NCBI RefSeq assembly: GCF_030503435.1
Contig: NZ_JAUKPO010000003.1
Coordinates: forward strand, 62,001-126,000
Length of the DNA stretch: 64,000 bases
Direction of reading: 5' to 3'
Origin: Rhodocytophaga aerolata
GTDB lineage: Bacteria > Bacteroidota > Bacteroidia > Cytophagales > 172606-1
The translations under genes and the position numbers were made by a program. Positions within the stretch are counted from its first letter, which is position 1; each line of letters opens with the position of its first letter. The notes under the pieces are model-generated. The model did not search any database. It had not been told where the DNA came from and worked only from the letters and a program-made list of their open reading frames with translations. This document shows, piece by piece, positions 2,600 to 33,955 of this stretch.

Positions 2600-2609
2600 C
2601 ATTGCTTTC

Positions 2610-15565: not shown

Positions 15566-16237
15566 ATGATCAAGCTCAAAAATATTTTCAAGTGGTACTC
15601 TTCGGGTTTTGTAAAGACCTTCGTCCTGCGCGACGTAAGCCTGGACATTGCCCAGGGAGAATTTGTATCCATTATGGGTCCTTCCGGCTCCGGCAAATCC
15701 AGTTTACTTAATATAATTGGCATGCTCGACGATCCTTCTGAAGGCGAATACTATTTTCTGGATCAGCCGGTGCATAAGATGAAGGAGAAACACCGTTCAG
15801 AGTTACATAAAAATCACATCGGTTTTGTATTTCAGAGCTACCACCTGATAGATGAACTCACGGTATATGAAAACCTGGAAACCCCCTTGCTGTATAAAAA
15901 TATCAAGTCTGCCGAGCGGAAAGCTATTGTAGCCGATACCCTGGATAAATTTAATATAGTGGGTAAAAAAGATTTGTTTCCCAACCAACTGTCTGGCGGA
16001 CAGCAGCAATTAGTAGGCATTGCCAGAGCTGTTATTACTACTCCTAAACTAATTCTAGCGGATGAACCCACCGGAAATCTGAATTCTGCCCAAGGAATAG
16101 AAATTATGGAGCTGTTCAAGAAACTGAATGAAGAAGGCGTAACGATTGTGCAGGTAACCCACTCAGAAAAAAATGCAGAATATGGCAGCCGCATTGTAAG
16201 CCTGCTGGACGGACGTGTAGAACAAGCCTATGCGTAA
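15566..16237 (+). CDS. ABC transporter ATP-binding protein, LolD/MacB type
   Basis: A 223-residue cytoplasmic ATPase that should energise the two FtsX-like permeases encoded just upstream. All nucleotide-binding motifs are intact: Walker A GPSGSGKSS at 38-46, signature LSGGQQQ from 142, Walker B LILADEP at 162-168, and a switch His in QVTHS. The signature has the LSGGQQQLVGIARA form, where LolD has LSGGERQRVAIARA. The size and a single ATPase domain fit the LolD/MacB group. A terminator follows after 28 bp, so this is the last gene of the ABC unit. Confidence 0.92.
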   Translation: MIKLKNIFKWYSSGFVKTFVLRDVSLDIAQGEFVSIMGPSGSGKSSLLNIIGMLDDPSEGEYYFLDQPVHKMKEKHRSELHKNHIGFVFQSYHLIDELTVYENLETPLLYKNIKSAERKAIVADTLDKFNIVGKKDLFPNQLSGGQQQLVGIARAVITTPKLILADEPTGNLNSAQGIEIMELFKKLNEEGVTIVQVTHSEKNAEYGSRIVSLLDGRVEQAYA

Positions 16238-16264
16238 TGGTACAAGGCCCATAAAAAACAGGTA

Positions 16265-16287
16265 AGCACAGGAAAACTGTGCTTTTT
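16265..16287 (+). terminator. hairpin terminator of the ABC unit
   Basis: AGCACAG and CTGTGCT form a 7 bp stem around GAAAA and are followed by TTTTT. It ends the ATPase transcript. Any start codon for the next gene inside the T-run (TTG at 16286) is thereby made unlikely. Confidence 0.8.
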
Positions 16288-16321
16288 GTATTACATTGTG
16301 TTTTTACTAAACTTTCTATGT

Positions 16322-17302
16322 ATGCGGCCTACCTATGTCTTGCGCTTACTGTTAGTTGTTGCTTGCCTTTATAGCCTTCAGTTACCCCTGCAGGCACAAC
16401 AGGAAGCAAAAAAATTTGTAACAGAAACAGGGTATTTGCTCTTTTTGCCGGAAGGGTATAAAAAAGACGATGGAAAGAAGTGGCCTCTTATGTTGTTTCT
16501 GCACGGATCTGGCGAAAGAGGTACCGTACTTGATTCTGTAAAAAAACATGGGCCTCCTAAAATTGTGGAGACTCAGAAAGATTTTCCTTTTATTTTAATA
16601 TCCCCTCAATGCCCACCTAATCAAGGGTGGCATCCCCCTTTATTAGATGCTTTGCTGGAAGAAGTAATTCAGGAGCATAATGTGGATACGGAACGTATGT
16701 ATTTAACCGGATTGAGTATGGGCGGCTACGGGACCTGGGAATATGCCACTATGTACCCCAACCGTTTTGCAGCCATTGTGCCTATTTGCGGAGGCGGCGA
16801 TCCGGCCAAGGTTTGGTCTATACGGAACTTGCCTATATGGGTATTTCATGGAGCCAAAGACCAAGCGGTACCTATCAAGCAATCGGAAGATATGGTAAAT
16901 GCCCTGAAAAACGTAGGCAATAATGCCAAGTTTACGGTATATCCGGAGGCAGGCCACGACTCCTGGACAGTAACTTATAATAATCCCGAGCTCTACCAAT
17001 GGCTGCTATCTCATAAGAAGAAGGAACGTTTAGCGGTTGAAGTAGACCCTAAAATATTCGACAAATACGTGGGCAAGTATGAATTTTCGCCTCAGTTTAT
17101 ATTTACAGTAACCAAAGAAAGGGACCATTTATATGGACAGGCTAGCGGGCAACCTAAAGTAGAACTGCTGCCGGAAACCGAAAAAGACTATTTTATTAAA
17201 GAAGCCGACATTCAATTCACCTTTGTTACCGACAATAAAGGCAAAGCCACCGAACTGATTCTATACCAGAATGGTGAGCGGCGGGCAAAAAGGCTAAAAT
17301 AA
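16322..17302 (+). CDS. secreted alpha/beta-hydrolase (carboxylesterase / prolyl-oligopeptidase-like) with C-terminal DUF3471-like domain
   Basis: A signal peptide (about residues 1-25, ending in LQAQQ) is followed by an alpha/beta-hydrolase fold. The catalytic triad can be read: Ser132 in GLSMGGYG, Asp180 in GAKDQAVP and His212 in EAGHDSW; FLHGSGERG near the start is the oxyanion-hole loop. This resembles the phospholipase/carboxylesterase group often found with glycan-use genes in Bacteroidota. The last 80 residues form a small beta-rich domain starting at DKYVGKYEF, similar to DUF3471. The start is set at ATG 16322, since the longer frame begins at a TTG inside the preceding terminator. The substrate is unknown; the SusC/SusD cluster downstream may be related. 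Confidence 0.82.
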   Translation: MRPTYVLRLLLVVACLYSLQLPLQAQQEAKKFVTETGYLLFLPEGYKKDDGKKWPLMLFLHGSGERGTVLDSVKKHGPPKIVETQKDFPFILISPQCPPNQGWHPPLLDALLEEVIQEHNVDTERMYLTGLSMGGYGTWEYATMYPNRFAAIVPICGGGDPAKVWSIRNLPIWVFHGAKDQAVPIKQSEDMVNALKNVGNNAKFTVYPEAGHDSWTVTYNNPELYQWLLSHKKKERLAVEVDPKIFDKYVGKYEFSPQFIFTVTKERDHLYGQASGQPKVELLPETEKDYFIKEADIQFTFVTDNKGKATELILYQNGERRAKRLK

Positions 17303-18041
17303 TACAGTACGTCACCAGAAACTTGTTTAAGCGCCTAGCCAGAATTATCCATGCCATATTGGCTGTATTGAACAAATCATGAAGCAAATACTACCTTTGT
17401 TTCATTCAGGTGCCTATACCCTATTCAATTTCCTAGAAGTTGGCAAGCCAGGAACAGCCTACTTCCTTTTCATCAAAGACTCTTTAAATTAAATTTACTC
17501 TAGCTAAAATCCAATTTATTACTTTTGATAGCTGCTTACTCCGACGAACATAGCTTTTCAGGATAAAAATTGCACTTTTATAATTATTTTTTTAGTTTTT
17601 GAAGCAATTGAATGTTTATTTTTAGTATATTTTACTCATAAATAATATTTTGTTAAGCCTTCTTGAATTGTTTAAAGTTTCTGAAAAGTTATTACCCAAT
17701 ATACTAATCATACTAAAACTACCTAAACAACCTTAATTTGTATGTTAAGCAGAGATACCCAGGCATATTCAAGAATGTCTTCCTTTCCTGATTTTTTTCT
17801 GATGTATGCTGGTGATAGCAGTATAAACGGGCAGGCAAGCAAATACAATCAATTTACAGCTCACTGTCCAAGTAATATAGTGTATGAATGAACTTCCCTC
17901 TTTCGGCTATAGGGTGAAGTTTGGAGTACCGTTTTCTTTTTACTAAGGTACTATAACCGGCATTTCATATATACCTTCAGTTTTACACGCATCCGCTAAT
18001 CAACCCTCTTTGTTCTTACTCAATCTATTTTCTCATTCATT
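17303..18041. other. 739 bp intergenic region upstream of the first SusC gene
   Basis: The stretch is AT-rich in its middle (about 17500-17720). It contains one promoter-like element (17367-17399) and one 49-codon open frame (17742-17891, beginning MLSRDTQAYS) without recognisable features, which I do not call as a gene. The 640 bases between the promoter and the SusC start codon could be a long leader or hold a small RNA. Confidence 0.45.
17367..17399 (+). promoter_or_regulatory. Bacteroidota-type promoter, far upstream of SusC 1
   Basis: ATTG (17367-17370), a 21 bp spacer and TACCTTTG (17392-17399) fit the TTTG / TAnnTTTG consensus with one mismatch in the -33 box. The transcript would start near 17406, more than 600 bases before the SusC start codon. 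Confidence 0.4.
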
Positions 18042-21000
18042 ATGAAACCTAAAATTTACCATTTTAGCAAATTCTTTTTGCTGGGCATGCTTCTCCTATG
18101 GAGCCTGCAGACAATTGCCCAAAACAGAACCATCACGGGAAAAGTAACCGCCCAGGACGATGGCTCCGTCTTACCTGGGGTAAACGTATTGGTGAAAGGC
18201 TCCTCTTCCGGAACCATTACCGATGCCAATGGCGCCTTTAGTATTGGTGTTACAGAAGCTAATCCTACCTTGGTTTTTAGTTACATTGGCTACACCACCC
18301 AGGAAGTAGCCGTAGGCAGCCGTAGCTCTGTAGATGTACAATTAGCCGGCGATGTAAAAGCCCTGCAAGAAGTAGTCGTTACCGGGTACGGCTCACAGTC
18401 AAAGCGGGAAATTACCGGGGCGGTAGCAACCATTGATGCCAAGCAACTCTTAACTACTCCTTCCACCAACTTAGGCCAGGCACTGCAAGGAAAAGTAGCC
18501 GGCGTAACCATTGGCAATGAGAACAGTCCTGGAGGTGGGGTGATGGTACGTATCCGGGGTTTTGGTACAATTAACGATAACTCCCCACTTTATGTAATTG
18601 ATGGGGTACCCACCAAAGGCAACTTAAATACATTGAACCTGAATGACATAGAATCTATGCAGATTTTAAAAGATGCATCTGCCGCGTCTATCTATGGTTC
18701 CAGGGCAGGTAATGGGGTAGTTATTATTACTACCAAAAAGGGGAAAGTTGGCAAACCCATGTTTACCTACGATATGTATTACGGTACCCAGCGGCCTGGC
18801 AAATTTCTGGATCTGTTAAATACGCAGGAATATGCCAATCTGGTATGGGAATCACGCAGGAATTCAGGTGCAGTCGGTGCAAATGGCAATCCGGTTCATG
18901 CCCAGTTTGGAAACGGAGAACAACCCAGAATACCAGATTATATTTTCCCTGCCGGAGCTATGGCAGACGATCCACGGGTGGCACAGGATGCTAATGGAAA
19001 TTATATCAATTATGGCAACAACATAGATGCACCTGAATTTAACCGGACTAAATGGCTGATCACGAAAGCCAACAAAGAAGGTACCGACTGGTTCGACGAA
19101 ATATTTGATCCGGCTCCGATTCAGAATCACCAGTTAGGGGTTTCCGGCGGAAATGAAAGCGGACGGTATGCCATGTCGTTGAATTATTTCGATCAGCAGG
19201 GGATTATGATCTACACCAACTTTAAGCGGTATTCCTTGCGTGCAAATACAGAGTTTAACATAAATAAACGTATACGGGTAGGGGAAAACTTTCAGGCTGC
19301 CCACAGCATACGGGTTGGCCAACCAAGTGGTAACAACAGTGAAAGTAACCCTGTTTCATTTGCTTACCGCATTCAGCCCATTGTGCCAGTATATGATGTA
19401 TCGGGTGTAACGTTTGCCGGAACACGCGGCACTGACTTGGATAACTCACGCCAGCCGGTGGGAGACTTGTGGCGCAATAAAGAAAACCAGCAGAAAGAAT
19501 TGCGTTTGTTTGGGAATGCCTATGCAGAGGTAGATATATTAGATAATTTAACAGCTAAAACCAGTTTTGGTATTGATTATAATATATTTAACTACCGCAA
19601 CTATACTATCCGGGATATAGAATCGGCAGAGGCCAGGGGTTCGAATAGTCTGCAAACCACCAATAATTATGAGTGGAACTGGACCTGGTATAATACGTTG
19701 ACCTATAAGTTGACTATTGCCGAAATTCACCGCCTGAATATGCTGATTGGTACAGAATCTATTAAAGATTACTATGAATTCTTTGATGCTTCCCGTACTA
19801 ACTTTGCTGTAGATGACCTGGATAACCGCTACCTAAGTGGGGGAACTGGCGTACAAACCAATAATGGCGGCGGTTATAACTGGTCCTTAGCTTCAGAATT
19901 TGCCAAAGTAAATTATGTAATGGCAGATAAATATCTGTTGGAAGCTACTCTACGCCGCGACCGTTCTTCCCGTTTTTCACCTCAATATCAGGTAGCTTAT
20001 TTCCCGGCTGTGAGTGCAGGCTGGGTTCTGTCTGAAGAGGGCTTTGCCAAAGGATGGAGTTCCTGGCTTAGCTCGGTAAAACTAAGAGCCGGCTGGGGAC
20101 AGACAGGAAACCAGGAAATTGGTAACTACAACCCATTCACCATTTTTGCTACCAATCCCGCTACCTCCTTCTACGACTGGAATGGCACCCGTACCTCTGC
20201 TATTCCCGGGTATGAACTTATCCAGTTTGGCAATGCCAAAGCTAAGTGGGAGACTACTACGTCAACTAACCTTGGCTTAGATGCCAGTTTATTTAATAAC
20301 CGCATAGATGTGGCTTTTGACTGGTATACCCGCCTAACTACCGATATGCTTTTTCCGGTGCAAGCTCCCGGAACCGCAGGTGTAGCCACAGCACCTTTTC
20401 AGAACATTGGTTCTATGCGGAACAGAGGAATAGATGCAGCAGTAAACTACAATGGACAAGCACTTAATAACCAATTGACTTTTAATGTTGGCCTGAACTT
20501 TAGTACCTACCGGAATGAAGTAATAAAAACAACCGGCGACCCCAGAACACAATATTTTGGCATTAACGACGAACGTATTCAAAATTTTGTAGTTACCCAG
20601 CAAGGTTATCCTATTTCCTCTTTCTTTGGCTACACCATTGAAGGCATTTTCCAGTCGGATGATGAGGCAGCGGCGGCTCCCAAAAATAACCTAGGTACTA
20701 ACCAAAACAGAGCCGGCCGCTTCATTTTCAAAGATATGAATGGCGATAATGTAATTGATACCAAAGATTTGTCTATTATCGGCAATCCGCATCCAGATTT
20801 TACCTATGGTATAAATATCAATGTTAATTATAAAAATATTGGATTAACCATTTTCGGACAGGGTGTACAAGGCAATGAGATTTTTAATTATGTAAAATAC
20901 TGGACAGACTTCCCCACCTTTGCCGGAAACAGAAGCAAACGGATGCTCTACGATTCCTGGCGGCCAGGCAAAACAGATGCTATTCTGCCACAGCTTACCT

Positions 21001-21302
21001 CCAGCGACCAGGTTAGCATTCTGCCTTCCACCTATTATTTGGAAAATGGATCGTATTTCCGGATGCGCAATATTCAGCTAACCTATACACTGCCTACTAA
21101 TCTGTTATCCAGATTTGGTTTGGGAACTACCAGGGTGTATATACAAGGCCAGAACCTACTTACTTTCACTAAGTATTCCGGCATGGACCCTGAAATTAAC
21201 CTGCGGAATTATACCTCTGGTAACGACCGTCAGATCGGCGTAGATGGCGGTTCTTATCCGGTATCCAGGCAGTACATTGCTGGAATTAACCTAAGTTTCT
21301 AA
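18042..21302 (+). CDS. SusC/RagA-type TonB-linked outer-membrane transporter (pair 1)
   Basis: A 1086-residue beta-barrel transporter that imports oligosaccharides, peptides or similar ligands with its SusD partner, driven by TonB. After a signal peptide (1-27, ending in IAQ) comes a CarboxypepD_reg-like domain (about 30-105), a TonB-box-like segment EVVVTGYG at 110-117, the plug (about 120-240, with YVIDGVPTKGN and NGVVIITTKKG), and the barrel, ending in a C-terminal Phe. The SusD gene follows after 42 bp. The N-terminal domain is almost the same at DNA level as that of the SusC at 23680, whereas the rest has diverged. The ligand cannot be told. Confidence 0.95.
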   Translation: MKPKIYHFSKFFLLGMLLLWSLQTIAQNRTITGKVTAQDDGSVLPGVNVLVKGSSSGTITDANGAFSIGVTEANPTLVFSYIGYTTQEVAVGSRSSVDVQLAGDVKALQEVVVTGYGSQSKREITGAVATIDAKQLLTTPSTNLGQALQGKVAGVTIGNENSPGGGVMVRIRGFGTINDNSPLYVIDGVPTKGNLNTLNLNDIESMQILKDASAASIYGSRAGNGVVIITTKKGKVGKPMFTYDMYYGTQRPGKFLDLLNTQEYANLVWESRRNSGAVGANGNPVHAQFGNGEQPRIPDYIFPAGAMADDPRVAQDANGNYINYGNNIDAPEFNRTKWLITKANKEGTDWFDEIFDPAPIQNHQLGVSGGNESGRYAMSLNYFDQQGIMIYTNFKRYSLRANTEFNINKRIRVGENFQAAHSIRVGQPSGNNSESNPVSFAYRIQPIVPVYDVSGVTFAGTRGTDLDNSRQPVGDLWRNKENQQKELRLFGNAYAEVDILDNLTAKTSFGIDYNIFNYRNYTIRDIESAEARGSNSLQTTNNYEWNWTWYNTLTYKLTIAEIHRLNMLIGTESIKDYYEFFDASRTNFAVDDLDNRYLSGGTGVQTNNGGGYNWSLASEFAKVNYVMADKYLLEATLRRDRSSRFSPQYQVAYFPAVSAGWVLSEEGFAKGWSSWLSSVKLRAGWGQTGNQEIGNYNPFTIFATNPATSFYDWNGTRTSAIPGYELIQFGNAKAKWETTTSTNLGLDASLFNNRIDVAFDWYTRLTTDMLFPVQAPGTAGVATAPFQNIGSMRNRGIDAAVNYNGQALNNQLTFNVGLNFSTYRNEVIKTTGDPRTQYFGINDERIQNFVVTQQGYPISSFFGYTIEGIFQSDDEAAAAPKNNLGTNQNRAGRFIFKDMNGDNVIDTKDLSIIGNPHPDFTYGININVNYKNIGLTIFGQGVQGNEIFNYVKYWTDFPTFAGNRSKRMLYDSWRPGKTDAILPQLTSSDQVSILPSTYYLENGSYFRMRNIQLTYTLPTNLLSRFGLGTTRVYIQGQNLLTFTKYSGMDPEINLRNYTSGNDRQIGVDGGSYPVSRQYIAGINLSF

Positions 21303-21344
21303 CTACCATCTGTTTATACATAAGTCAACGTAAAATTTAACACG

Positions 21345-23075
21345 ATGAAAAAGATTTTAATTATAACAAATGCTTTTTTACTGAGCGTATTCAGCTCCTG
21401 CTCAGATAAGTTTCTGGAAGTAACCCCAAAAGCGGCCTTGAGTAGCACTACTCTACAAAACAGCAAAGGTGTAACTGCTTTGTTAGTAGGTGCTTACTCG
21501 CTGTTAGATGGCTGGGCAACAGCCGAAGGAGCTTACCGTTCGTACCAGTCGTCAGCCGATAACTGGGTATATGGTAGTGTAGCTTCAGACGATGCCTATA
21601 AAGGGACAATTGCCGGTGATCAGCCACCTATTTCCCTGATAGAGCAAGGGAATATAGCATCGGATAACATCTATTTCCGGGGAAAGTGGCGTGCCATGTA
21701 TGATGGCATTGCCCGTACGAATGATGTGTTACAGGTATTAGCCAAAACAACCGATATTACCGATACCGAACGCCAGCAGATTACGGCAGAGGCAAGATTT
21801 TTACGTGGACATTACCACTTTGAACTCAAAAAGATGTTCAATAATGTGCCTTACATTGATGAAACGATCTACGATCCCAATAATCTGGAAAGCACCAAAA
21901 TACCCAATACTGCTGATATCTGGCCCCAAATTGAAGCAGATTTACAGGCAGCTTATGAGGTGCTTCCTACTAAGCAAGCCTCTCCCGGCCGGGCAACCAA
22001 ATGGGCTGCAGGCGCTACTTTAGCAAAAGCCTATTTATTCCAGAAAAAATATACGGAGGCAAAAACCATTCTGGAAGCAATAGTGGCTAGCGGCCAGTAC
22101 AGATTAGTAGACAGATTTCACGATAACTTCCGGGCAGTTACCAATAACAATGCCGAGTCTGTTTTTGAAATTGAATACTCTGTAAACGATGGTGCACCTG
22201 GTGGAGAAAACGGCAATATTGGCGCTACCTTAAACTATCCGTATGGGGGAGGTGGCGTTACTACCTGCTGCGGATTTTTTCAGCCCTCTCAAAATTTAGT
22301 GAATGCTTTTAAGACGAGTGACGAAGGTTTGCCTTTGCTAGATACATTTAATGCTACGGATGTTACCAGTGATCAGGGTCTGGAATCAACCAATCCTAAT
22401 TTTACACCTTACCAAGGTAACCTGGACCCCCGCCTCGACTGGACGGTAGGCAGACGGGGAATACCTTTCCTGGATTGGGGAGTTCATCCGGGCAAAACCT
22501 ATGTCCGCGACCAGGCCTATGGTGGGCCTTATTCGCCTAAAAAGCATGTAATGTACCGCTCCGATGTAGGTACAAACACATTTGCCGGCAACCCTCGCCT
22601 TAATGCCAATAATTACCGGATGATCCGCTATTCGCATGTGCTGCTGTGGCTAGCCGAAATAGAAGTTGAATTAGGTAATCTGGAAAATGCCAGAGGGTAT
22701 GTAAACCAGATCCGCAGAAGAGCCGCCAACCCAGACGGCTTTGTAAAAAAAGCGGATGGCACGCCTGCTGCCACCTATGTAATTAATGAATATACGCAAC
22801 CCTGGACAGATGCAGCCGTTGCCCGTAAAGCCGTTCAATTCGAGCAACGTCTGGAATTTGGTATGGAAGGGCACCGCAGATTTGACTTGATACGTTGGGG
22901 AATTGCCGCTGAAATATTAAATGCGTATTATGCTACGGAAGCAACCAAAAGATCCTATTTAAGCGGTGTACAATTTATCTCTGGGAAGCATGAGTATTTC
23001 CCTATTCCCCTGCAAGAAATACTAAATAGCACAGTAAACGGACAACCTACACTACAACAAAATCCCAATTATTAA
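21345..23075 (+). CDS. SusD/RagB-type outer-membrane lipoprotein (pair 1)
   Basis: A 576-residue surface lipoprotein that caps the SusC barrel and binds the ligand. The lipobox VFSSC places the lipidated Cys at residue 19, followed by the family-typical SDKFLEVTP. Helical TPR-like segments of the SusD fold follow, including RFLRGHYHFELKKMF, and the conserved late motif VQFEQRLEFGMEGHRRFDLIRWG. A Cys-Cys-Gly-Phe segment (TTCCGFFQPSQNLVNAF), shared with the SusD at 27025 but absent from the third one, probably lies near the ligand site. It is co-transcribed with the preceding SusC and ends in a strong terminator. Confidence 0.94.
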   Translation: MKKILIITNAFLLSVFSSCSDKFLEVTPKAALSSTTLQNSKGVTALLVGAYSLLDGWATAEGAYRSYQSSADNWVYGSVASDDAYKGTIAGDQPPISLIEQGNIASDNIYFRGKWRAMYDGIARTNDVLQVLAKTTDITDTERQQITAEARFLRGHYHFELKKMFNNVPYIDETIYDPNNLESTKIPNTADIWPQIEADLQAAYEVLPTKQASPGRATKWAAGATLAKAYLFQKKYTEAKTILEAIVASGQYRLVDRFHDNFRAVTNNNAESVFEIEYSVNDGAPGGENGNIGATLNYPYGGGGVTTCCGFFQPSQNLVNAFKTSDEGLPLLDTFNATDVTSDQGLESTNPNFTPYQGNLDPRLDWTVGRRGIPFLDWGVHPGKTYVRDQAYGGPYSPKKHVMYRSDVGTNTFAGNPRLNANNYRMIRYSHVLLWLAEIEVELGNLENARGYVNQIRRRAANPDGFVKKADGTPAATYVINEYTQPWTDAAVARKAVQFEQRLEFGMEGHRRFDLIRWGIAAEILNAYYATEATKRSYLSGVQFISGKHEYFPIPLQEILNSTVNGQPTLQQNPNY

Positions 23076-23679
23076 TTATAACAGCTTAAGCAACCAAATA
23101 CAAACCAGAAGTGTAAAGCAAAAGCGGCGCAAGATACTTGTGCCGCTTTTGCTTCATTAAAATCCTCCATCATAAAATTATCTGTGCACCAGGAGTAAGT
23201 TGATTTTGCAGTAGCCTTTCTAATGCTTGTTTACGGAGCTTCCATCAATGACTTTTCATAGCAGATTACACTTTGCGGCAATAAAAATAAGTTGGTTTTT
23301 CAAGGAATAAGCCATGTAAACGTTTGCATAAATATAACTTAACAAATATTTATTATAATTTCGTTGGTATATTATGATAAAAGTATAATTTTATAGCCAT
23401 AATAGTCTATTTTTTTACCTATAATCTTTCGCACTTATTTTTAAGCCTAAGTATCCTTTAAATAATTTAATCTTAAACCCATAAACCAAAGTATATTATC
23501 TATGAGTGCATAGTTTACACCCCTCCCATATCCCTTTAAGGGTTCATAAATAACTGATTACACTGCTCCCGGTGAGCTGCTATACTAGATTGCCAAACTT
23601 CTAAAGAAGAAGCCTGTCCCTCTATGTAGTAGCTAATTTTCTTGCTTACGCATTTGAATTTTACCTCAAACCAATATTT
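23076..23679. other. 604 bp intergenic region between SusCD pairs 1 and 2
   Basis: It holds the terminator of pair 1 (23116-23154) and an AT-rich stretch (about 23330-23480) that should include the promoter of pair 2. A perfect TAnnTTTG element was not found; TACACTTTG near 23265 has one base too many in the spacer. No small gene or RNA gene was recognised. Confidence 0.45.
23116..23154 (+). terminator. hairpin terminator of SusCD pair 1
   Basis: The arms AAGCAAAAGCGGC and GCCGCTTTTGCTT pair over 13 bp and extend inward with CAAG/CTTG around a mismatch. It starts 40 bases after the SusD stop. No long T-run follows, though the 3' arm itself is T-rich. Confidence 0.7.
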
Positions 23680-26600
23680 ATGAAATTGAAAATTTATTCC
23701 TCTGGCAGCATCCTGCTAATAGGGCTTATATTCCTATGGAGCCTGCCAACTTTTGCCCAAAACAGAACTATTACGGGAAAAGTAACCGCTCAAGACGATG
23801 GCTCGTCTCTACCTGGGGTGAACGTATTGGTGAAAGGCTCCTCTTCCGGAACCATTACCGATGCCAACGGTGCCTATAGTATTGGCGTTACAGAAGATAA
23901 TCCTACCTTGGTTTTTAGTTACATTGGCTACACCACCCAGGAAGTAGCCGTAGGCAGCCGTAGCTCTGTAGATGTACAATTAGCCGGCGATGTAAAAGCC
24001 CTGCAAGAAGTAGTCGTTACCGGCTATACTACCCAGCAGAAAAAAGACTTGACCAGTGCTATTGCCGTAGTATCACCAAAAGAGCTTCTGTCGGTTGCTG
24101 CTACCAGTGTACAACAGCAATTGCAAGGTAGAGCAGCAGGTGTATTTGTAACTAACAGCAACGTTCCAGGCCAAGGAGCAAACGTCCGTATCCGCGGATT
24201 TGGAACCTTAGGTAATAACGATCCTTTGTATATTATTGATGGGGTTCCTACCAAAGACAACCTGGCAAACTTTAACCAAAACGATATAGAATCTATTCAA
24301 ATTCTGAAAGATGCTACGTCCGCTTCTATTTATGGTGCCAGAGCTGGTAACGGGGTAGTTATCATCACAACTAAAAAGGGGAAAACAGGCGAGCCTAGAG
24401 TAACTTTTGAGAGTTACTATGGGGTGCAAGGCCAAGGGAAGCTTCTTAATTTATTGAATACAGCAGAATATGGCCAGTACCTTTGGCAAAGTAAGCTGAA
24501 TGCAGGTGTTGTAAATCGCACTACCGGCAATCCGGAACATGGCCAGTATGGCAATGGGCCAGAACCCATAATTCCAGATTATCTGGTGCCTAGTGGTGCG
24601 TTTGAAGGCGACCCCAGAACAAATCCTTCTTTATATAGCCGGGAACGTTTTCTGCCGGATGGTACTAATAACCCAGCTTTTGGCCGGGATGTATTCCAGA
24701 TTACCCGGGCCAATAAACAAGGCACCAACTGGATGGATGAAGTATTGAATCCTGCCCCTATGCAGAATTATCAGCTAGGTGTTTCTGGCGGTAATGAAAG
24801 TGCCCATTATTCTTTTTCAGCAGGCTACTTTAACCAGAAAGGCTTAATTATTCATAATGGATTTGAGCGCTATTCTGTACGGGCTAATACCGATTTTACC
24901 ATTAAAAAACGCCTCCGGATAGGTGAAAACCTACAGGTAGTATATGCCAAACGTAATGGTACTTTTGGCAACCAGGCAGAAGGCAATGAAATCTCTTTTG
25001 CTCTGCGCATGCAGCCTATTGTGCCTGTATATGATATTATGGGAAATTTTGCCGGCACACTAGGAAACAACCTGGGTAATGCACACAACCCGGTGGCTTT
25101 ATTATACAGAAACAAAGACAATGGGTATCAGGATGTACGCGTATTTGGGAATGTGTTTGCAGAAGTAGATATATTGAAAGGACTAACCGCCCGTACAAGC
25201 TTTGGTATGGATGGAACCGTTGGCCGTGGAAAATACGCTACTACCCCTACCTGGGAAGCATCCGAAGCAAGCCGCTACTATAACTACCGCTCGGATTTCA
25301 ACTACCGTACGGCCTGGACCTGGACTAATACCTTGAACTATAAACTTTTCCTGAACGAAACGCATAACATTAATGCTACCCTAGGCACAGAAGCTATTAA
25401 CGCCTGGGGTGAGTTTCAGGAAGGCTTCCGTGACAGGTATTCCACCACCGATGTGCTGTTCCCAGATAACTTACGTTTCCTGGATGCTGGGAACCCCCAG
25501 TTTCAGACTAACCGGGGCGAAATCCGGAACGACTACTCCCTTTTCTCTTATTTTGGCCAGATTAACTACTCCTTGATGGATAAGTATCTGTTCCAGGCTA
25601 CATTGCGCCGCGATGCTTCCTCCCGCTTCCTGGCTGCTTCCCGTTGGGCTACTTTCCCAGCCTTTAGTGTAGGCTGGCGTTTGTCTGAAGAGAACTTTAT
25701 GCAGGATATACCATTAATAAGTGATTTAAAACTGCGTGCAGGCTGGGGCCAAACCGGAAACCAGGACGGTATCAGCGATTATAACTCCTATGAGTTTTAC
25801 GATACTGATGTTACCAGAGGTGGCTACAGCGTACGTGGTAACCCCAATGGCTATGATGTAGCGTATTCTTTGCGGAAATTTGGTAACCCCTCCGGTAAAT
25901 GGGAAGCCACTACCTCTACCAATATTGGGTTTGACTTAGGCTTACTGGATAACAGAATTGAGGTAAACTTTGACTGGTTTAACCGCCAGACTGACGACGT
26001 ATTACTAACACTGGAATTGCCACGTGCCCTGGGTAATGCCGATTTGCCTTCGTTTAATGCGGCAGGTGTACGGAACAGAGGTGTTGATCTGGGGATTAAC
26101 TTCAACGATCAGATATTGAACGACCAGATAGACGTAAGTCTGGGCCTGATATTCTCTACCTACCGCAACGAAGTTACCGTAATTGACCCTAACAACGATG
26201 CTGCCTTCATTCCTGGCTTTGCCTTACGTACACCAGCTGTAACACGTTCTCAGAAGGGCTATCCGATTTCGTCCTATTATGGATACGTAATTGATGGTAT
26301 TTTCCAGACCCCTGAAGAAGCCGCTGCTGCACCCACCTTCGCCGGATATAACGATGCTACCGTTTATGTAGATATGAATGGCGATGGTGTGCGGGAAGCG
26401 GTGCAAGGAGTAGGTAAATTTAAATACCGCGATATAAATGGAGATGGTGCTATTACGTCTGCTGACCAGACTTATATTGGCAGTCCACACCCTGATTTCA
26501 ATTATGGGGTGAATCTTTCTCTCGGATATAAAGGCATAGAACTAACGGCTTTCCTGCAAGGTGTATCTGGTAACGATGTGTTTAACTATGTGCGATACTG

Positions 26601-26985
26601 GACAGATTTCAATACATTCCAGGGAAACCGTAGCACACGGGTATTATACGATTCCTGGACACCAGGCAACCCAAATGCAAAATTGCCAATTCTGGATGAG
26701 AAAGATGCCGTAAGTAGCCGGCCTTCTACCTATTTTATTGAGAAAGGTTCGTATGCCCGTCTCAAAAATCTGCAACTGGCCTACAGTTTACCTGCTGGCT
26801 TTGTATCAAAAATCGGATTGAGCCAGATTAGATTCTATGCACAAGCACAAAACGTGTTTACCATAACTAAATACACAGGTCTTGATCCTGAAATGGCTTT
26901 ACGCGGCGACAACCAGATTGGGGTAGATGAGGCAGTTACACCCACTCCTAAACTGTATATGTTCGGATTGAACCTTGGCTTCTAA
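23680..26985 (+). CDS. SusC/RagA-type TonB-linked outer-membrane transporter (pair 2)
   Basis: A 1101-residue paralogue of the SusC at 18042: signal peptide (1-27), CarboxypepD_reg-like domain (about 30-105), EVVVTGYT at 110-117 as TonB-box-like segment, plug with YIIDGVPTKDN and NGVVIITTKKG, and a beta-barrel ending in a C-terminal Phe. Residues about 30-115 are encoded by nearly the same DNA as in pair 1, with the final 126 bases unchanged, while the plug and barrel differ widely. This suggests either a recent exchange of the N-terminal module or selection on it. It contains two Asp-rich loops (YVDMNGDGVREA and YRDINGDGAITSADQ) that look like calcium-binding sites. The SusD partner follows after 39 bp. 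Confidence 0.95.
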   Translation: MKLKIYSSGSILLIGLIFLWSLPTFAQNRTITGKVTAQDDGSSLPGVNVLVKGSSSGTITDANGAYSIGVTEDNPTLVFSYIGYTTQEVAVGSRSSVDVQLAGDVKALQEVVVTGYTTQQKKDLTSAIAVVSPKELLSVAATSVQQQLQGRAAGVFVTNSNVPGQGANVRIRGFGTLGNNDPLYIIDGVPTKDNLANFNQNDIESIQILKDATSASIYGARAGNGVVIITTKKGKTGEPRVTFESYYGVQGQGKLLNLLNTAEYGQYLWQSKLNAGVVNRTTGNPEHGQYGNGPEPIIPDYLVPSGAFEGDPRTNPSLYSRERFLPDGTNNPAFGRDVFQITRANKQGTNWMDEVLNPAPMQNYQLGVSGGNESAHYSFSAGYFNQKGLIIHNGFERYSVRANTDFTIKKRLRIGENLQVVYAKRNGTFGNQAEGNEISFALRMQPIVPVYDIMGNFAGTLGNNLGNAHNPVALLYRNKDNGYQDVRVFGNVFAEVDILKGLTARTSFGMDGTVGRGKYATTPTWEASEASRYYNYRSDFNYRTAWTWTNTLNYKLFLNETHNINATLGTEAINAWGEFQEGFRDRYSTTDVLFPDNLRFLDAGNPQFQTNRGEIRNDYSLFSYFGQINYSLMDKYLFQATLRRDASSRFLAASRWATFPAFSVGWRLSEENFMQDIPLISDLKLRAGWGQTGNQDGISDYNSYEFYDTDVTRGGYSVRGNPNGYDVAYSLRKFGNPSGKWEATTSTNIGFDLGLLDNRIEVNFDWFNRQTDDVLLTLELPRALGNADLPSFNAAGVRNRGVDLGINFNDQILNDQIDVSLGLIFSTYRNEVTVIDPNNDAAFIPGFALRTPAVTRSQKGYPISSYYGYVIDGIFQTPEEAAAAPTFAGYNDATVYVDMNGDGVREAVQGVGKFKYRDINGDGAITSADQTYIGSPHPDFNYGVNLSLGYKGIELTAFLQGVSGNDVFNYVRYWTDFNTFQGNRSTRVLYDSWTPGNPNAKLPILDEKDAVSSRPSTYFIEKGSYARLKNLQLAYSLPAGFVSKIGLSQIRFYAQAQNVFTITKYTGLDPEMALRGDNQIGVDEAVTPTPKLYMFGLNLGF

Positions 26986-27024
26986 ACTAGTTTATCAGAC
27001 CTTAATTACCTTTAATTATATATT

Positions 27025-28776
27025 ATGAAAAGAAATTGGATTATTGCTTTGTCTATGGCAGGAGTATTATCCGTAAGCTCATGCGGCGACAAGTTTCTTG
27101 AAAAACAACCGAAAGGCAGGTATAGCCCCGAGAGCCTTCAAAACGCTACCGGCGTAGAAGGACTTTTAGTAGGGGCGTATGGTGCGCTGGATGGTATTCC
27201 TGTAGGTGCCGGGCAAAGTGACTGGCATGGCTCTATTCATGCCTGGATATTTGGCGATGTCGTGTCAGATGATGCATATAAGGGTACAGATGCCGGAGAC
27301 CAGCCAGAGCAGACATTTCTGGAAACCTATCAATGGCTGGAAACCAATAACCACGTGCGTGGAAAATGGAGCGCTATGTATAATGGTGTTGCCCGGACAA
27401 ATCAGGTTTTACAGGCTGTAGCCAAGGCTACTGATCTATCGGCAGACCGTGCCGCACAAATCACAGCAGAAGCCAAATTTTTGCGGGCGCTTTTCCATTT
27501 TGAAGCTAAACGGATGTGGAACAATATTCCCTATTACGATGAACAGGTATACAACTCTACCAATCCTAATAGTGTGAAAATTTCTAATACGGAAGATGCC
27601 TGGCCTAAAATTCAGGCAGATTTTGAGGCTGCTATAGCTGTACTTCCTGAAACACAACCTGGTTTCCCCGGCAGGCCTACCAAATATTCAGCTATGGCTA
27701 TGCTAGCCAAAGCATTAATGTATCAGGGATTTGATGTAAATACGGGTGCTGCCAGAGTAGATAAGCTTACGCAGGCCAAAGGGTTGCTAGATCAGATTAT
27801 TGCCAGTGGCAAGTATACACTGGTAGAAAAATACCACGATAACTGGTCTGCCGATAATGCTAACCGGAACAACAAAGAGTCTATTTTTGAGGTACAGTAC
27901 TCTGTAACGGCCGCAGCCGATGGCGGTGGTAATGCAGGTATGGACCTGGCATGGCCTTACAACAATGGTCCTGGCGGATGCTGTGGATTTTATCAGCCTT
28001 CTCAAAACCTGGTGAACGCACACAAAACTGAAAACGGCCTTCCCTTACTCGACACCTTTAATGAGGTAGATGTAAAAAGTGACCAGGGTATTGCATCGAA
28101 CCAGCCTTTTGAACCCTATACCGGCACCCTAGACCCCAGGGTAGACTGGAGTGTGGGCCGCAGAGGAATTCCCTATATGGACTGGGCCATTCACCCAGGC
28201 AGAGACTGGATACGTGACCAGGCCTATGGTGGACCTTATTCGCCAAAAAAACATATTCCTGAGAGAAGAAATTCAGGGATAGCCGGTAACCAGAGACGGA
28301 ATGCCAATAACTACCGCATGGTCCGGTATGCACACGTGTTGTTGTGGGCAGCAGAATGTGAGGTAGAATTAGGCAATCTGGAAAAAGCCCGTGAACATGT
28401 GAATATGGTTCGCCGCCGGGCTGCCAACCCTGCCGGTTTTGTGCTGAAAGCCGACGGAACACCTGCTGCCAACTATGTAATTAGTGAATACCTGCTACCC
28501 TGGACAGACCAGGAAACAGCCCGTAAAGCCGTACGTTTTGAAGAAAGGCTTGAGTTTGCTATGGAGGGAGAACGTTACTTTAATCTGGTACGCTGGGGTA
28601 TAGCTGCCCCTACACTCAACGCCTATCTGGAAAAGGAAAAAAACTTGCGTACCTATCTAAACAATGCACAGTTTATAAAAGGCAGGCATGAATACTATCC
28701 GATTCCTTGGTCAGAAATAATTAATACAAAAGTGGATGGAAAAGATGTACTGGTACAAAACCCAGGCTATAATTAG
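27025..28776 (+). CDS. SusD/RagB-type outer-membrane lipoprotein (pair 2)
   Basis: A 583-residue surface lipoprotein with lipobox SVSSC (lipidated Cys20) followed by GDKFLEKQPKG. It is clearly homologous to the SusD at 21345 along its whole length, sharing SDDAYKGT, the GGCCGFYQPSQNLVNAHKT segment, the DPRVDWSVGRRGIPYMDW segment, PYSPKKH and the late VRFEERLEFAMEGERYFNLVRWG motif. This means that pairs 1 and 2 arose by duplication and probably bind related ligands. It is co-transcribed with the SusC just upstream and followed by a terminator. Confidence 0.94.
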   Translation: MKRNWIIALSMAGVLSVSSCGDKFLEKQPKGRYSPESLQNATGVEGLLVGAYGALDGIPVGAGQSDWHGSIHAWIFGDVVSDDAYKGTDAGDQPEQTFLETYQWLETNNHVRGKWSAMYNGVARTNQVLQAVAKATDLSADRAAQITAEAKFLRALFHFEAKRMWNNIPYYDEQVYNSTNPNSVKISNTEDAWPKIQADFEAAIAVLPETQPGFPGRPTKYSAMAMLAKALMYQGFDVNTGAARVDKLTQAKGLLDQIIASGKYTLVEKYHDNWSADNANRNNKESIFEVQYSVTAAADGGGNAGMDLAWPYNNGPGGCCGFYQPSQNLVNAHKTENGLPLLDTFNEVDVKSDQGIASNQPFEPYTGTLDPRVDWSVGRRGIPYMDWAIHPGRDWIRDQAYGGPYSPKKHIPERRNSGIAGNQRRNANNYRMVRYAHVLLWAAECEVELGNLEKAREHVNMVRRRAANPAGFVLKADGTPAANYVISEYLLPWTDQETARKAVRFEERLEFAMEGERYFNLVRWGIAAPTLNAYLEKEKNLRTYLNNAQFIKGRHEYYPIPWSEIINTKVDGKDVLVQNPGYN

Positions 28777-28801
28777 AATTTCATCTTACTCATACATTCA
28801 C

Positions 28802-28833
28802 AAAAAAGCTGCTTCAGATGAAGCAGCTTTTTT
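28802..28833 (+). terminator. hairpin terminator of SusCD pair 2
   Basis: AAAAAAGCTGCTTC and GAAGCAGCTTTTTT form a perfect 14 bp stem around AGAT, ending in a T-run. It starts 26 bases after the SusD stop. Confidence 0.88.
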
Positions 28834-28882
28834 GTTGTTAATCGCAATACGTATCGTGTATAATATTCCTAATCAGTATCAT

Positions 28883-28919: not shown

Positions 28920-28940
28920 GTCAAGTATAGATTTCTATAT

Positions 28941-30655: not shown

Positions 30656-33600
30656 TTAAATACCAATGTTAATACCTACCGTAAAAATTCTTGGTCTGGG
30701 ATATTCATGCCATTTTATACCTTGTGAGAATGCGCTATTTTCATTATTCTGATTGGTCGGTGTTACTTCAGGATCTCCGATGAGGTCTTTGTCAACAATC
30801 AGGAATGCGTTTTGGGCTGAAGCATAAATTCTAAGTCTACTTAATTTTAATTTAGAATAGATTGCTTCAGGGAAAGTATACCCTAATAATATATTCCTGC
30901 CCCGTATAAAAGAGCCATCTTTCACCCACCAGCTATCTACGTTGGTTACATAACCAGCCCGTGTATCACGTATTTCGGCAATCATGGTATTCTGGTTTTC
31001 CGGTGTCCAGGCGTTCAATACAGTTTTGTAACTGTTGGCAAGTGCCTGACGGTCTTCACTGGCATGTCTGGTTAAATCTAACACATCATTGCCATAAGAG
31101 AACTGAAGTTCTACAGTCAGATCCAGGCTTTTATAACGGAATGAGTTAGTCATGGCTCCCCAGGCTTTAGGCGTACCATTGCCAATAATCTTCCTGTCAG
31201 CATCAGAGATGATGTAATCGCCATTTACATCCAGATATTTAACATCACCTGGCAAAATGGTCAGGTTATTACGGTAACTGGTATATTTAGCAGCTTCATC
31301 CGCCTCAGCAGTTCCCCAGATGCCTAAACGTGTAAGCCCCCAGAAAGAACCCACTGGCTCTCCAACACGAATAACACTGGTTTGATTGGTAAAATTAGGA
31401 CCACCAACCCCAAAAATATCGGCAGGTGTGGCTAATGTAAGTACTTTGTTCTTATTTAGTGAAATATTGAAATTAGTATTCCATGAAAAATCTCCGGATT
31501 GAATATTTACAGTATTCAGTGCGAATTCTATCCCTTTATTTTCCATTGAGCCCACATTCTTCCGGATAGTAGCATAGCCACTGGTACGGGGAACAGGAGC
31601 ATCCAGCAGCATATCCGTGGTTTTTCTGTGATAGAGATCCACTTCTAAGTTTATTCTGCCTTTAAATAAGCCCAGTTCCAAACCAACATCTGTTTGAGCA
31701 GTTTTTTCCCATCTCAAATCAGGGTTAGCTAATCTGTTCAAGCCAGTACCTCCTACACGTGTATCACCATAGATTGCCGCATAGGTTGAACTTAATAAAG
31801 CTAAAGAATTATAAGCAGGTATTTCAGAGTTACCTGTTAACCCATAGCTGGCCCGCAGCTTTAAGTTGGAGATTACATTGTTACCTTTTAAGAATTCTTC
31901 TTCAGAAACTCTCCAGGCCAGGGCGGCAGATGGGAAGAAAGCAAATTTGTTATTTTCACCAAACTTAGATGAACCATCGGCACGGCCAGTAAAGGTTACT
32001 AAATATTTATCCATCAAGCCATAGTTGATCCTTCCAAAATAAGAATTAAATGAATTTTGGGAAGCCTCAGAAAAAACCTGAGGGTTAGTGCTACCAGCAT
32101 CTATATTATTAAAACCAAAATAATCTGTTGCAAAGCCACGTATGCTGGTACTCATATCAAAATAGTTTGTCCTCTGCCAGGAAATACCTAACAAAGCAGT
32201 AAGTGAATGAATGTCAGCAAAGCGTTTGGTATAGGTCAGATAGTTTTCTAAAGACCAGAACATTTCACGTTTATTGAACGTAGAGGCCGTGCCTTGTTCA
32301 TTTATAGCTAAGGTCCGGGTTTGGGATTGGTTATTTTCCTGTGTCAGGATATTAGCACCCAAAACGGTTCGCATTTCTAAACCTGGAAAGAAAGTAATAT
32401 TGGAATAAAGACTTCCTATACTGGTTTGCGTATTCAAGATGTATTTGCGGCCGTATAACCTGTGTACAGAACTCATAGTGCCTTCTGCATTGGGATAATC
32501 CCTGTTATTAGCAAAGGTGCCATCTGCATATCGTACTGGCATAAAAGGAAAATCTTCCACAATCTGACGAGAAACTGCATCATTCACATCCACCAAGTTT
32601 TCGTTCTGGTAGGTATAACTCAGGGTTCCACCTATCTTCAACCATTTTTTAACTTGGTCATCTATAGAGAATCTGCCTGAATAGCGTTTCAGATAAGAAG
32701 TTTTTACAAACCCTTGGTCATCCCGGTAACCCAGCGAAAGGGCATAGGTAGTTCGCTCATTACCACCGCTAAAGCCCAGCTGGTGATTTTGAGAGAGTTT
32801 ATTTTGTGTGGCTTCCCTCATCCAGTTGGTATCATATAAGGGATTGCCATTGGCATCAAAAAGTTTATTATTACCATTGGCATCTAAAAGCCGTGGATCT
32901 TTCCGGGCAAGTGCAGGATCTCTAAATGCCCATTTGCCTTCTGCCCATCCCTTAGGATCATATTTTGCCATGTTCTGGTAAGCCAGGTCTTCTACGGCTA
33001 AGTATTCTCGCGCATTTAGTACTTCAGGTGCATTAGGGCCAAGGGTTGGCACACTAAAATCTGCATCATAGGTTATTCTTCCTTCGCCAGATCTGCCTTT
33101 TCTGGTTGTAACTAGAATAACGCCGTTTGCACCTCTTGCTCCATAAATAGCTGTCGAAGAGGCATCTTTTAATACTTCTACAGAAACAATATCGTTAGGA
33201 TTAATATAATCTATGGCATTGCTGAACTGATTCTGATTGCCTTGAGGTAACATTACTCCATCTACTACATACAAAGGATTATTGGAGGAGTTGATAGAAC
33301 TGAATCCACGCACCCGTACAGTGGTTCTACCTCCTGGACGGCCAGAGTTCGTATTTACCTGAACACCGGCCATTCTACCTGCTAAGGCCTGATTAAGGGA
33401 TGGAGCTGGCCTTTCCTGTAGTACTTCGGCTTTTATTGACGAAACTGAGCCTGTTAAGTCAGATTTTTGCGCTGTACCATAGCCGATTACTACTACTTCG
33501 CTTAGTGATTTAATATCTGACACCAGACTAATATCTATACTGGTACGCCCGTTAATGGGCACTTCCTCTGTAGTATAGCCGATATACGAAAATACCAACG

Positions 33601-33955
33601 TGCCATTAGCTGCATTATCAGGTATATTAATCGTATACCCGCCATTTACATCTGTTGTGGTTCCTGTGGAGGTACCTTTCAGCAAGACATTCACACCTGG
33701 AATAGCCTCTCCATTTTCGTCTTTCACGGTACCTCTAACCGAGATATCAGCTGCTTGCTTGCCATTAGTTAACAATGCAGATGTGTGTACGCCTGCAACC
33801 AATGTACCATGGTCTGTTGAGATGTACGCTTTTGCTTCAGCTGGGAAGAAGCCAGAACTGACGAAGAGCACAGATGAAAACAGGCTAATGCCAGTTAACC
33901 TCTGCACTTTTACGAGCAGCTGCTTCTGTGAGGGAATAGTAATTCGTTGACTCAT
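30656..33955 (-). CDS. SusC/RagA-type TonB-linked outer-membrane transporter (pair 3)
   Basis: A 1099-residue outer-membrane transporter. The N-terminal leader is longer than usual: about 25 polar and basic residues (MSQRITIPSQKQLLVKVQRL) precede the hydrophobic segment, which ends around AEAKA at residue 43. A linker follows and the CarboxypepD_reg-like domain starts near residue 73 (VRGTVKDENGEAIPGVNVLLKG). Next come SEVVVIGYGTAQK as the TonB-box region, a plug with YVVDGVMLPQGN and NGVILVTTRKG, and the barrel. The SusD partner lies downstream on the same strand. No degrading enzyme, sigma/anti-sigma pair or hybrid two-component sensor accompanies it in this window. Confidence 0.94.
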   Translation of the reverse strand: MSQRITIPSQKQLLVKVQRLTGISLFSSVLFVSSGFFPAEAKAYISTDHGTLVAGVHTSALLTNGKQAADISVRGTVKDENGEAIPGVNVLLKGTSTGTTTDVNGGYTINIPDNAANGTLVFSYIGYTTEEVPINGRTSIDISLVSDIKSLSEVVVIGYGTAQKSDLTGSVSSIKAEVLQERPAPSLNQALAGRMAGVQVNTNSGRPGGRTTVRVRGFSSINSSNNPLYVVDGVMLPQGNQNQFSNAIDYINPNDIVSVEVLKDASSTAIYGARGANGVILVTTRKGRSGEGRITYDADFSVPTLGPNAPEVLNAREYLAVEDLAYQNMAKYDPKGWAEGKWAFRDPALARKDPRLLDANGNNKLFDANGNPLYDTNWMREATQNKLSQNHQLGFSGGNERTTYALSLGYRDDQGFVKTSYLKRYSGRFSIDDQVKKWLKIGGTLSYTYQNENLVDVNDAVSRQIVEDFPFMPVRYADGTFANNRDYPNAEGTMSSVHRLYGRKYILNTQTSIGSLYSNITFFPGLEMRTVLGANILTQENNQSQTRTLAINEQGTASTFNKREMFWSLENYLTYTKRFADIHSLTALLGISWQRTNYFDMSTSIRGFATDYFGFNNIDAGSTNPQVFSEASQNSFNSYFGRINYGLMDKYLVTFTGRADGSSKFGENNKFAFFPSAALAWRVSEEEFLKGNNVISNLKLRASYGLTGNSEIPAYNSLALLSSTYAAIYGDTRVGGTGLNRLANPDLRWEKTAQTDVGLELGLFKGRINLEVDLYHRKTTDMLLDAPVPRTSGYATIRKNVGSMENKGIEFALNTVNIQSGDFSWNTNFNISLNKNKVLTLATPADIFGVGGPNFTNQTSVIRVGEPVGSFWGLTRLGIWGTAEADEAAKYTSYRNNLTILPGDVKYLDVNGDYIISDADRKIIGNGTPKAWGAMTNSFRYKSLDLTVELQFSYGNDVLDLTRHASEDRQALANSYKTVLNAWTPENQNTMIAEIRDTRAGYVTNVDSWWVKDGSFIRGRNILLGYTFPEAIYSKLKLSRLRIYASAQNAFLIVDKDLIGDPEVTPTNQNNENSAFSQGIKWHEYPRPRIFTVGINIGI

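Follow-up and report, generated by a model that had tools for sequence, protein, structure and literature searches.

A sharply bounded patch shared by two neighboring susC genes of Rhodocytophaga aerolata, a likely product of gene conversion

Introduction

Interlocus gene conversion between paralogs is marked by a short homogenized tract with saturated flanks, discordant trees, and nearby direct copies. A search of an open library yielded no paper linking SusC/TonB-dependent receptors with gene conversion. The pattern in which the N-terminal extension (NTE) is constant and the rest of the receptor variable is already described for ragA of Porphyromonas gingivalis; according to PMC11817032, the first ~450 bases of this gene, coding for the signal peptide and the NTE, are near-identical in all four types, and ragB is heterogeneous throughout. 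Exchange of whole PULs between strains is covered in PMC8845570. In Bt1763, the NTE consists of the same PF13715 domain, located before the Ton box, and has an Ig-like fold, as determined by NMR; with the NTE deleted, growth on levan was lost, and its suspected role, according to the authors, lies in biogenesis or cell function, perhaps not in transport itself (PMC7782687).

The two susC genes described here, C1 and C2, resemble ragA in that the breakpoint lies close to the junction of NTE and plug and the susD partners (D1 and D2) have diverged like the barrels. They differ from it in that ragA shows between-strain variation at one locus, whereas C1 and C2 are side-by-side paralogs in one genome, for which no allelic membership is claimed, and in that their similarity has its edge at the TonB box, in codon 115.

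The susCD locus

The window, i.e., the whole analyzed stretch of 64,000 nucleotides, includes the following features:

18042..21302, plus strand: susC gene C1, 1086 aa, with signal peptide, NTE (PF13715), plug, and barrel (TIGR04056, TIGR04057, PF13715, PF07715, PF00593)
18117..18385, plus strand: patch copy 1, the NTE module of C1, with similarity extending over 18094-18388
18260..18385, plus strand: identical 126-bp core, copy 1; 3' end within the final codon of the EVVVTG TonB box (codons 110-115)
21345..23075, plus strand: susD partner D1, without the patch; saturated at silent sites and identical to D2 at 337 of 566 aa
23116..23154, no strand: hairpin between D1 and C2 with 18-nt arms, probable terminator
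23680..26985, plus strand: susC gene C2, 1101 aa, same profile families as C1
23755..24023, plus strand: patch copy 2, the NTE module of C2, with similarity extending over 23732-24026
23898..24023, plus strand: identical 126-bp core, copy 2, a maximal exact run
27025..28776, plus strand: susD partner D2, by profile match
30656..33955, minus strand: third susC, C3, of a different barrel family

C1 and C2 are SusC/RagA TonB-linked outer membrane proteins, an assignment based on scores above the cut-off for both TIGR04056 (879 and 868 bits, respectively; cut-off of 368) and TIGR04057 (64 bits each; cut-off of 46), along with the presence of the NTE, plug, and barrel. The adjoining susD partners were confirmed by PF07980 and PF14322 matches in both D1 and D2. 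The two susC genes share one orientation at a distance of 5.6 kb, belong to different families, have a susD gene each, and are not alike in their upstream regions; the hairpin probably serves as a terminator that parts the two susCD units. The module covered by the patch is the NTE (PF13715). Six PDB sequences match the NTE of C1; they are listed as SusC homologs, RagA, and TonB-dependent or TonB-linked receptors. The third gene, C3, is probably an older mosaic within the window, as the silent sites of its NTE are far more diverged from the ortholog than those of its plug and barrel. The longest of the inverted sequence pairs listed for this region joins C2 to C3 on the opposite strand and represents coding homology.

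Extent and edges of the patch

The earlier note had described a gapless alignment of 18117-18385 with 23755-24023 with about 15 differences in 269 bases, a final 126 bases without change, and an abrupt stop inside the TonB box, and all of these observations were reproduced. Ungapped comparison gives 15/269 differences, at patch positions 15, 18, 36, 39, 51-55, 66, 114, 117, 122, 132, and 143; the longest exact run is 126 bp (18260-18385 = 23898-24023), with a spacing of 5638 between the two copies; and a third-base difference is already present in codon 115, which encodes the G of EVVVTG. From 18387 onward, only 39 of 90 bases match. At the other end, a repeat alignment (18094-18388 with 23732-24026, 93%) starts within the signal peptide, a little upstream of 18117. 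Exact matches between 17303-23075 and 23076-28776 include runs of 126 and 47 bp in the patch and none of >17 bp outside it. The differences are unevenly spread, with 15 in the first 143 bp and none in the last 126 (Fisher test, 6e-5). By eye, the block at positions 51-55 suggests a compensated -1/+1 shift rather than five substitutions; counted in this way, about 11 mutational events separate the two copies, and the unevenness has a Fisher value of 1e-3.

The SusC/SusD shufflons of Bacteroides (PMC5729914 and PMC11852207) raise the question of site-specific inversion, as they also comprise neighboring susCD units with common sequence near the 5' end. However, the B. fragilis system described there uses an invertase and inverted repeats, whereas the copies in C1 and C2 are direct, which contradicts inversion. 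No inverted pair of ≥30 nt (seed 14) was found in 15000-33000, and of the 42 weaker inverted pairs in 17300-34500, none among the 25 listed connects the beginning of C1 with that of C2. Inversion was rejected on the orientation of the copies and has next to no likelihood. The genome is a draft assembly of 202 contigs, which makes an artefact around the repeat conceivable, but the copies differ at 15 positions and both genes are open, each with ortholog-like sequence past the patch; this explanation was rejected as well and is very unlikely.

Following a suggestion in the earlier note, the genome was searched at the DNA level for further copies of the 126-base block, and none was found beyond C1 and C2. 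The next own-genome match to the patch by score is 71% over ~255 bases; closer matches are only short (78% over 69 bases and 90% over 29 bases). This bears on the possibility that C1 and C2 acquired one and the same NTE separately, from a lost third copy or an outside source. Such a source would agree with the GC content of the NTE, which among the 51 SusC genes of this genome (mean, 0.450) is the highest in C1 (0.498) and the sixth in C2 (0.487), and with the resemblance, judged by eye, of the C1 and C2 signal peptides to those of another family (L131 in this genome, L134 in the congener G001). Nevertheless, the genome has no third copy, and the best foreign match by score in 58 other genomes, with at most 12 candidates scored in each, is 71%. 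An independent double acquisition therefore appears improbable.

Silent-site divergence

Outside the patch, the C1 and C2 proteins are ~50% identical and their silent sites are mostly saturated, in line with the much greater divergence of the plug and barrel that had been claimed. A sliding-window synonymous comparison, which had also been suggested, gave NG86 dS values per 25 codons of 0.60, 0.17, and 0 for codons 26-100. Outside the NTE, the values were mostly >1 or saturated, with three windows at 0.80-0.98. The plug, the barrel, and the two susD genes are mostly saturated in dS, and the drop to 0 is confined to the NTE; equal synonymous divergence inside and outside the patch, named in the earlier note as evidence against its reading, was not observed. 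Identical synonymous codons make up 74 of 86 in codons 28-116 versus 236 of 491 outside (Fisher test, 1.2e-11), and their longest run, 44, was reached in 0 of 20,000 permutations (permutation maximum, 26).

These runs disfavor selection at the protein level. A case for purifying or concerted selection, whether it acts on the protein or on an RNA or DNA element inside the NTE, could draw on the conservation of the NTE protein across the paralogs of genome G000 (median of 52% aa, versus 29% for the rest). However, silent sites are homogenized between the paralogs and not with the orthologs, from which the NTEs of C1 and C2 differ at 18/34 and 21/35 fourfold sites, and no other pair among the 4962 compared (see below) shows such likeness. 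Selection is thus a highly improbable cause, and an RNA element inside the NTE was rejected as contradicted by the silent-site comparisons.

Trees and orthologs

In a 13-row DNA tree of the NTE, C1 and C2 are sisters (98/99), and the grouping of C1 with its ortholog L120 is rejected (p=0.0048). In the 110 codons after the NTE, it is the C1+C2 grouping that is rejected (p=1e-70), as it is for the whole remainder outside the NTE (p=1e-5), although the C1+L120 grouping there is weak (55/93 in the plug, 71/80 in the rest). Just past the TonB box, C1 reads like L120 and C2 like L121 and L123. The genealogies before and after the TonB box are in conflict, as recombination predicts. Together, the silent-site runs, the dS values, and these trees support the reading in the earlier note that the pattern fits gene conversion rather than protein-level selection.

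In the NTE protein tree, which left out the partial gene L090, the C1/C2 pair adjoins the C1 ortholog (84/86), in disagreement with the 13-row DNA tree. In a 99-row, 86-column NTE tree, AU tests were applied to pairs drawn from the seven ortholog pairs not recovered on the NTE; five tests were begun, and all four that finished were non-significant (p from 0.31 to 0.65), including C1+L120 (0.62) and C2+L121 (0.31). As the constrained tree outperformed the free one in 2 of these 4 tests, the 99-row tree is too noisy for any genome-wide claim and hence does not contradict the 13-row test.

The orthologs of C1 and C2 in the congener G001 lie ~4 Mb apart, and their NTEs are 73% alike at the nucleotide level, with 21/39 fourfold differences. 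The patch is absent from the orthologs examined (one congener, 85% barrel identity). A donor was sought through the differing patch codons, and each copy was found to carry its own changes. The C1 and C2 signal peptides share 12 of their first 25 residues, compared with 27-29% aa identity to those of the orthologs, which suggests a history longer than one event.

Origin of the patch

Recombination as the origin of the patch is well supported by the silent-site homogenization, the sharp 3' edge, the discordant trees, and the lack of the patch in the orthologs examined, and gene conversion is quite probably the form that it took. Homologous recombination would have copied the NTE-coding segment from one susC gene to its neighbor, with earlier copying probably taking in part of the signal peptide, and would have halted at the TonB box because C1 and C2 are too different beyond it to pair. 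Similarity changes in steps, from ~60% nt in the signal peptide to ~90% in the first half of the NTE, 100% in its second half, and 43% in the next 90 bases, which fits at least two rounds sharing one 3' edge; conversion thus probably took place in two or more rounds. We infer the RecA type of recombination, the number of rounds, and conversion rather than crossover.

Another form of this recombination still in contention is replacement of the cassette downstream, whereby both copies would go back to a common signal peptide and NTE, and a foreign plug-barrel-susD segment would have been swapped in behind one of them near the TonB box. The near-identity of the first 450 bases in the four ragA types (PMC11817032) offers a parallel, as does a similar ortholog pair from close species, L280/L297, with 96% nt identity before the NTE, 89% in the NTE, and 71% in the middle, although its identity falls gradually through the plug; C1 and C2 also resemble each other in their signal peptides. 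However, the unlike upstream regions and the signal peptides, which are much more diverged than the NTEs, argue against a recent duplication of the 5' end, and both barrels have well-placed relatives elsewhere, C1 in Adhaeribacter rhizoryzae and G001, and C2 in G003, G005, and G006. Such a replacement is therefore rather unlikely.

Gene conversion as proposed here is the same in kind as that known between other paralogous loci, its peculiarity being that the tract coincides with one protein module. Both receptors combine practically identical periplasmic NTEs and Ton boxes with different plugs, barrels, and SusD lids; their substrate specificity should thus be unaffected by the patch.

NTE exchange among other receptors

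C1/C2 is the sole pair with an NTE identity of >75% nt among the 4962 within-genome SusC pairs from four genomes, so fresh NTE conversion is rare. These pairs included 48 of 49 genes from G003 and 54 of 56 from G005 (3 of 105 dropped). In the three-genome family search, 49 candidates were scored per genome, so that repertoires of at least 49 may be incomplete. NTEs were nearer within genomes than between orthologs in 19 of 60 cases, a count that was 0-1 of 60 for each one of 19 control windows, and orthologs were recovered between genomes in 23 of 30 cases with the NTE, versus 29-30 with the other windows. Between more distant genomes, the NTE tracks orthology less well than the other tested windows, and its wider exchange among receptors is plausible, albeit not proven.

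Between G000 and G001, silent-site divergence is higher in the NTE (0.617 versus 0.546; 21/30 pairs, p=0.004), but this excess was not taken to indicate turnover, as the segment that precedes the NTE is higher still (0.69). Among 31 Dyadobacter ortholog pairs, which are not independent, none showed a significant NTE excess and 3 showed a significant deficit. The close species G003 and G005 showed no general excess (mean of 0.184 versus 0.187, 17/37 pairs higher, p=0.92) in a set of 42 reciprocal pairs minus 4 without a recognized TonB box, with 1 of the remaining 38 (<70% aa) left out of the mean.

In 10 of 12 other cases, same-strand neighbors no more than 15 kb apart have NTEs whose likeness exceeds the prediction of a regression (mean z of 0.73, p values of 0.02 and 0.04), a post hoc result that is only a hint.

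In itself, the C1/C2 patch is a clean case of an ordinary process; it hints that the NTE may pass between receptors more widely. Tentatively, the SusC NTE might be an interchangeable cassette of ~85 residues before the Ton box, subject to long-term exchange among the ~50 paralogs per genome, with barrels exchanged beneath it. If so, NTEs would partly follow the genome, plug, barrel, and SusD would follow the receptor family, and the C1/C2 patch would be one fresh copy event caught in four genomes. An NTE that moves between receptors with unrelated barrels would be expected to serve a partner common to many SusCs, such as TonB, the assembly machinery, or another periplasmic factor, rather than a substrate-specific one.

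The C1/C2 Locus and Extent of the Patch

Two susC-susD pairs are arranged head to tail in the window, C1-D1 and then C2-D2. The strong hairpins that follow D1 and D2 are probably terminators separating the two units.

18042-21302, susC C1, SusC/RagA family with PF13715 N-terminal extension (NTE), plug, and barrel (Pfam, NCBIfam)
21345-23075, D1, SusD, partner of C1 (Pfam)
23116-23154, strong hairpin directly 3' of D1
23680-26985, susC C2, SusC/RagA family with PF13715 NTE, plug, and barrel (Pfam, NCBIfam)
27025-28776, D2, SusD, partner of C2 (Pfam)
28800-28835, strong hairpin directly 3' of D2
30656-33955 (-), C3, third susC

Elsewhere in the window, ORFs 34386-36197 (-), 36323-36721 (+), 36718-37857 (+), and 7190-9694 (-) had no NCBIfam match at 1e-5; the 603-aa ORF among them, the only one scanned against Pfam, had no match there at 0.001 either.

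The near-identity between C1 and C2 described in the earlier note was reproduced as an ungapped alignment of 18117-18385 with 23755-24023 (spacing, 5638) with 15 differences in 269 positions, as were its identical 126-bp run and abrupt stop; the run closes within the final codon of the EVVVTG TonB box. This patch is the NTE of the two proteins. Similarity extends upstream as far as 18094, 5' of which DNA comparison revealed no likeness, and no exact matches longer than 17 bp join the two susC-susD units outside the patch. The differences are confined to its first 143 bp (Fisher's test, 6e-5, or 1e-3 if counted as 11 events), and five adjacent ones resemble, by eye, a compensated -1/+1 shift. 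The signal peptides of C1 and C2 are about 60% alike in nucleotides and less like those of their orthologs.

Silent Sites

The patch exceeds what chance or protein conservation would produce. Synonymous divergence along C1 and C2, which the earlier note had singled out as the telling measure, drops as that note anticipated: in 25-codon windows, dS is 0.60, 0.17, and 0 at codons 26-100 and mostly >1 or saturated outside them, with three windows at 0.80-0.98. Between D1 and D2, dS is >1 or saturated over the full length (50-codon windows). Synonymous codons are identical at 74 of 86 positions inside the patch versus 236 of 491 outside, and the longest identical codon run is 44, compared with a maximum of 26 in 20,000 permutations.

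Genealogy and Synteny

In the plug-barrel tree, C1 groups with the congener G001 and Adhaeribacter rhizoryzae within a wide Cytophagales family, and C2 groups with G001, G003 and G005 (two species close to each other), and G006. The protein tree of the NTE makes C1 and C2 sister to each other (100/99), nested in an eight-row group that mixes barrel families (97/96) and consists entirely of genomes from the window's family; two Dyadobacter barrel groups are likewise united (97/96, with Pseudarcicella). Tested on the NTE, the C1-ortholog clade is rejected (p=7e-6, or 2e-4 with the window pair removed). Tested on the barrel, so are the NTE groupings (p=3e-50 and 1e-6), which were picked after the tree was seen. 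A 13-row DNA test is cleaner: in the NTE, C1+C2 received 98/99 and C1 with its G001 ortholog, L120, was rejected (p=0.0048); in the next 110 codons, C1+C2 was rejected (p=1e-70), with support for C1+L120 of only 55/93. Past the TonB box, C1 and C2 each read like their own ortholog.

All five mapped C1-ortholog loci (L120, L089, L088, L112, and L096; ~20 kb each) contain the C1-D1 pair and lack a C2-type pair, and no C1-type neighbor was found in the ~20 kb around the C2 orthologs in G001 and G003; the C1-C2 tandem is therefore seen in this genome alone. Among the loci examined, so is the patch. In G001, the orthologs of C1 and C2 lie ~4 Mb apart, and their NTEs are 73% identical in nucleotides, with 21 of 39 fourfold sites different. 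In G006, the C2 pair has the C3-D3 ortholog as its neighbor; C3-D3 is the third pair and also adjoins C2-D2 in the window.

Silent sites and discordant trees support the interpretation proposed earlier: the patch is a recombination tract that stays within the NTE region and stops at the TonB box, and gene conversion is its likeliest form. The mechanism is an ordinary one. Because the differences occur only in the first 143 bp and the signal peptides retain their likeness, the best account of both would be repeated tracts sharing a 3' edge, which heterology past the TonB box may have set. The protein tree weakly favors C1 as donor (84/86); the DNA tree favors neither side.

Possible NTE Exchange in Other SusC Genes

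Within-genome SusC pairs with NTEs >75% alike in nucleotides number 1 of 1275 in the window's genome, 0 of 1128 in both G001 and G003, and 0 of 1431 in G005. In the G003/G005 comparison (38 of 42 reciprocal pairs used), mean silent divergence of the NTE equals that of the rest. The NTE is less diverged in L280/L297, L288/L308, and L265/L242 and more diverged in L291/L310 and L273/L293 (uncorrected p, 2e-5 to 0.003); in the four of these mosaics that were profiled, the shift is gradual or in the plug or beyond, never sharp at the TonB box.

Between the window's genome and G001, which are farther apart than G003 and G005, the NTE is the least alike segment of orthologs (0.73) and shares with one plug window the highest likeness among paralogs (0.66). 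The own paralog is at least as close as the ortholog in 19 of 60 gene views for the NTE (four from the C1/C2 families) and in 0-1 of 60 per window for the rest of the gene (19 overlapping windows). Ortholog pairs were recovered as sisters in 23 of 30 cases for the NTE versus 29-30 of 30 in six control windows. A fixed domain core with fast remaining sites could be the source of part of this mismatch, and on the noisy NTE tree all four finished AU tests, C1+L120 and C2+L121 among them, were not significant. C3 supports NTE exchange: fourfold sites differ from its G001 ortholog at 26 of 36 positions in the NTE versus 130 of 403 outside it (p=4.6e-6, the lowest of 30 pairs tested), with the change located near the NTE/TonB-box junction. 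This pattern probably reflects an older event in which one lineage had its NTE replaced.

Ten of 12 other same-strand susC neighbors (≤15 kb) in these two genomes have NTEs more similar than the remainder of the gene would predict (mean z, 0.73; p, 0.02 and 0.04, noticed post hoc). One SusC gene of the window's genome (L141, C143:13066-16152) has an in-frame TAA. In G001, L122 (7603-11265) combines a C2-like barrel (60% in amino acids) with a long added segment before the NTE whose motif suggests a putative STN signaling domain; related barrels therefore carry different N-terminal architectures.

Comparison with Known Systems

The NTE is described as having an Ig-like fold, and its removal from Bt1763 is reported to have abolished growth on levan (PMC7782687). 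In ragA, the first 450 bases are reported to be nearly identical across all four types, with ragB heterogeneous (PMC11817032). The ortholog pair L280 (G003, 731-3961) and L297 (G005, 620-3859) has a similar anatomy, a conserved 5' end (96%) and NTE (89%) over a diverged mid/barrel (71% in nucleotides); its identity falls gradually along the plug. Bacteroides fragilis susCD genes are reported to be shuffled by inversion (PMC5729914, PMC11852207), whereas the C1/C2 copies are direct, and none of the inverted pairs listed joins the starts of C1 and C2. A search by title and abstract start, mainly of non-subscription literature, found no paper on gene conversion of the SusC NTE. The C1/C2 patch draws its interest from being the clearest case in this analysis of what may be a wider modular behavior of the NTE.
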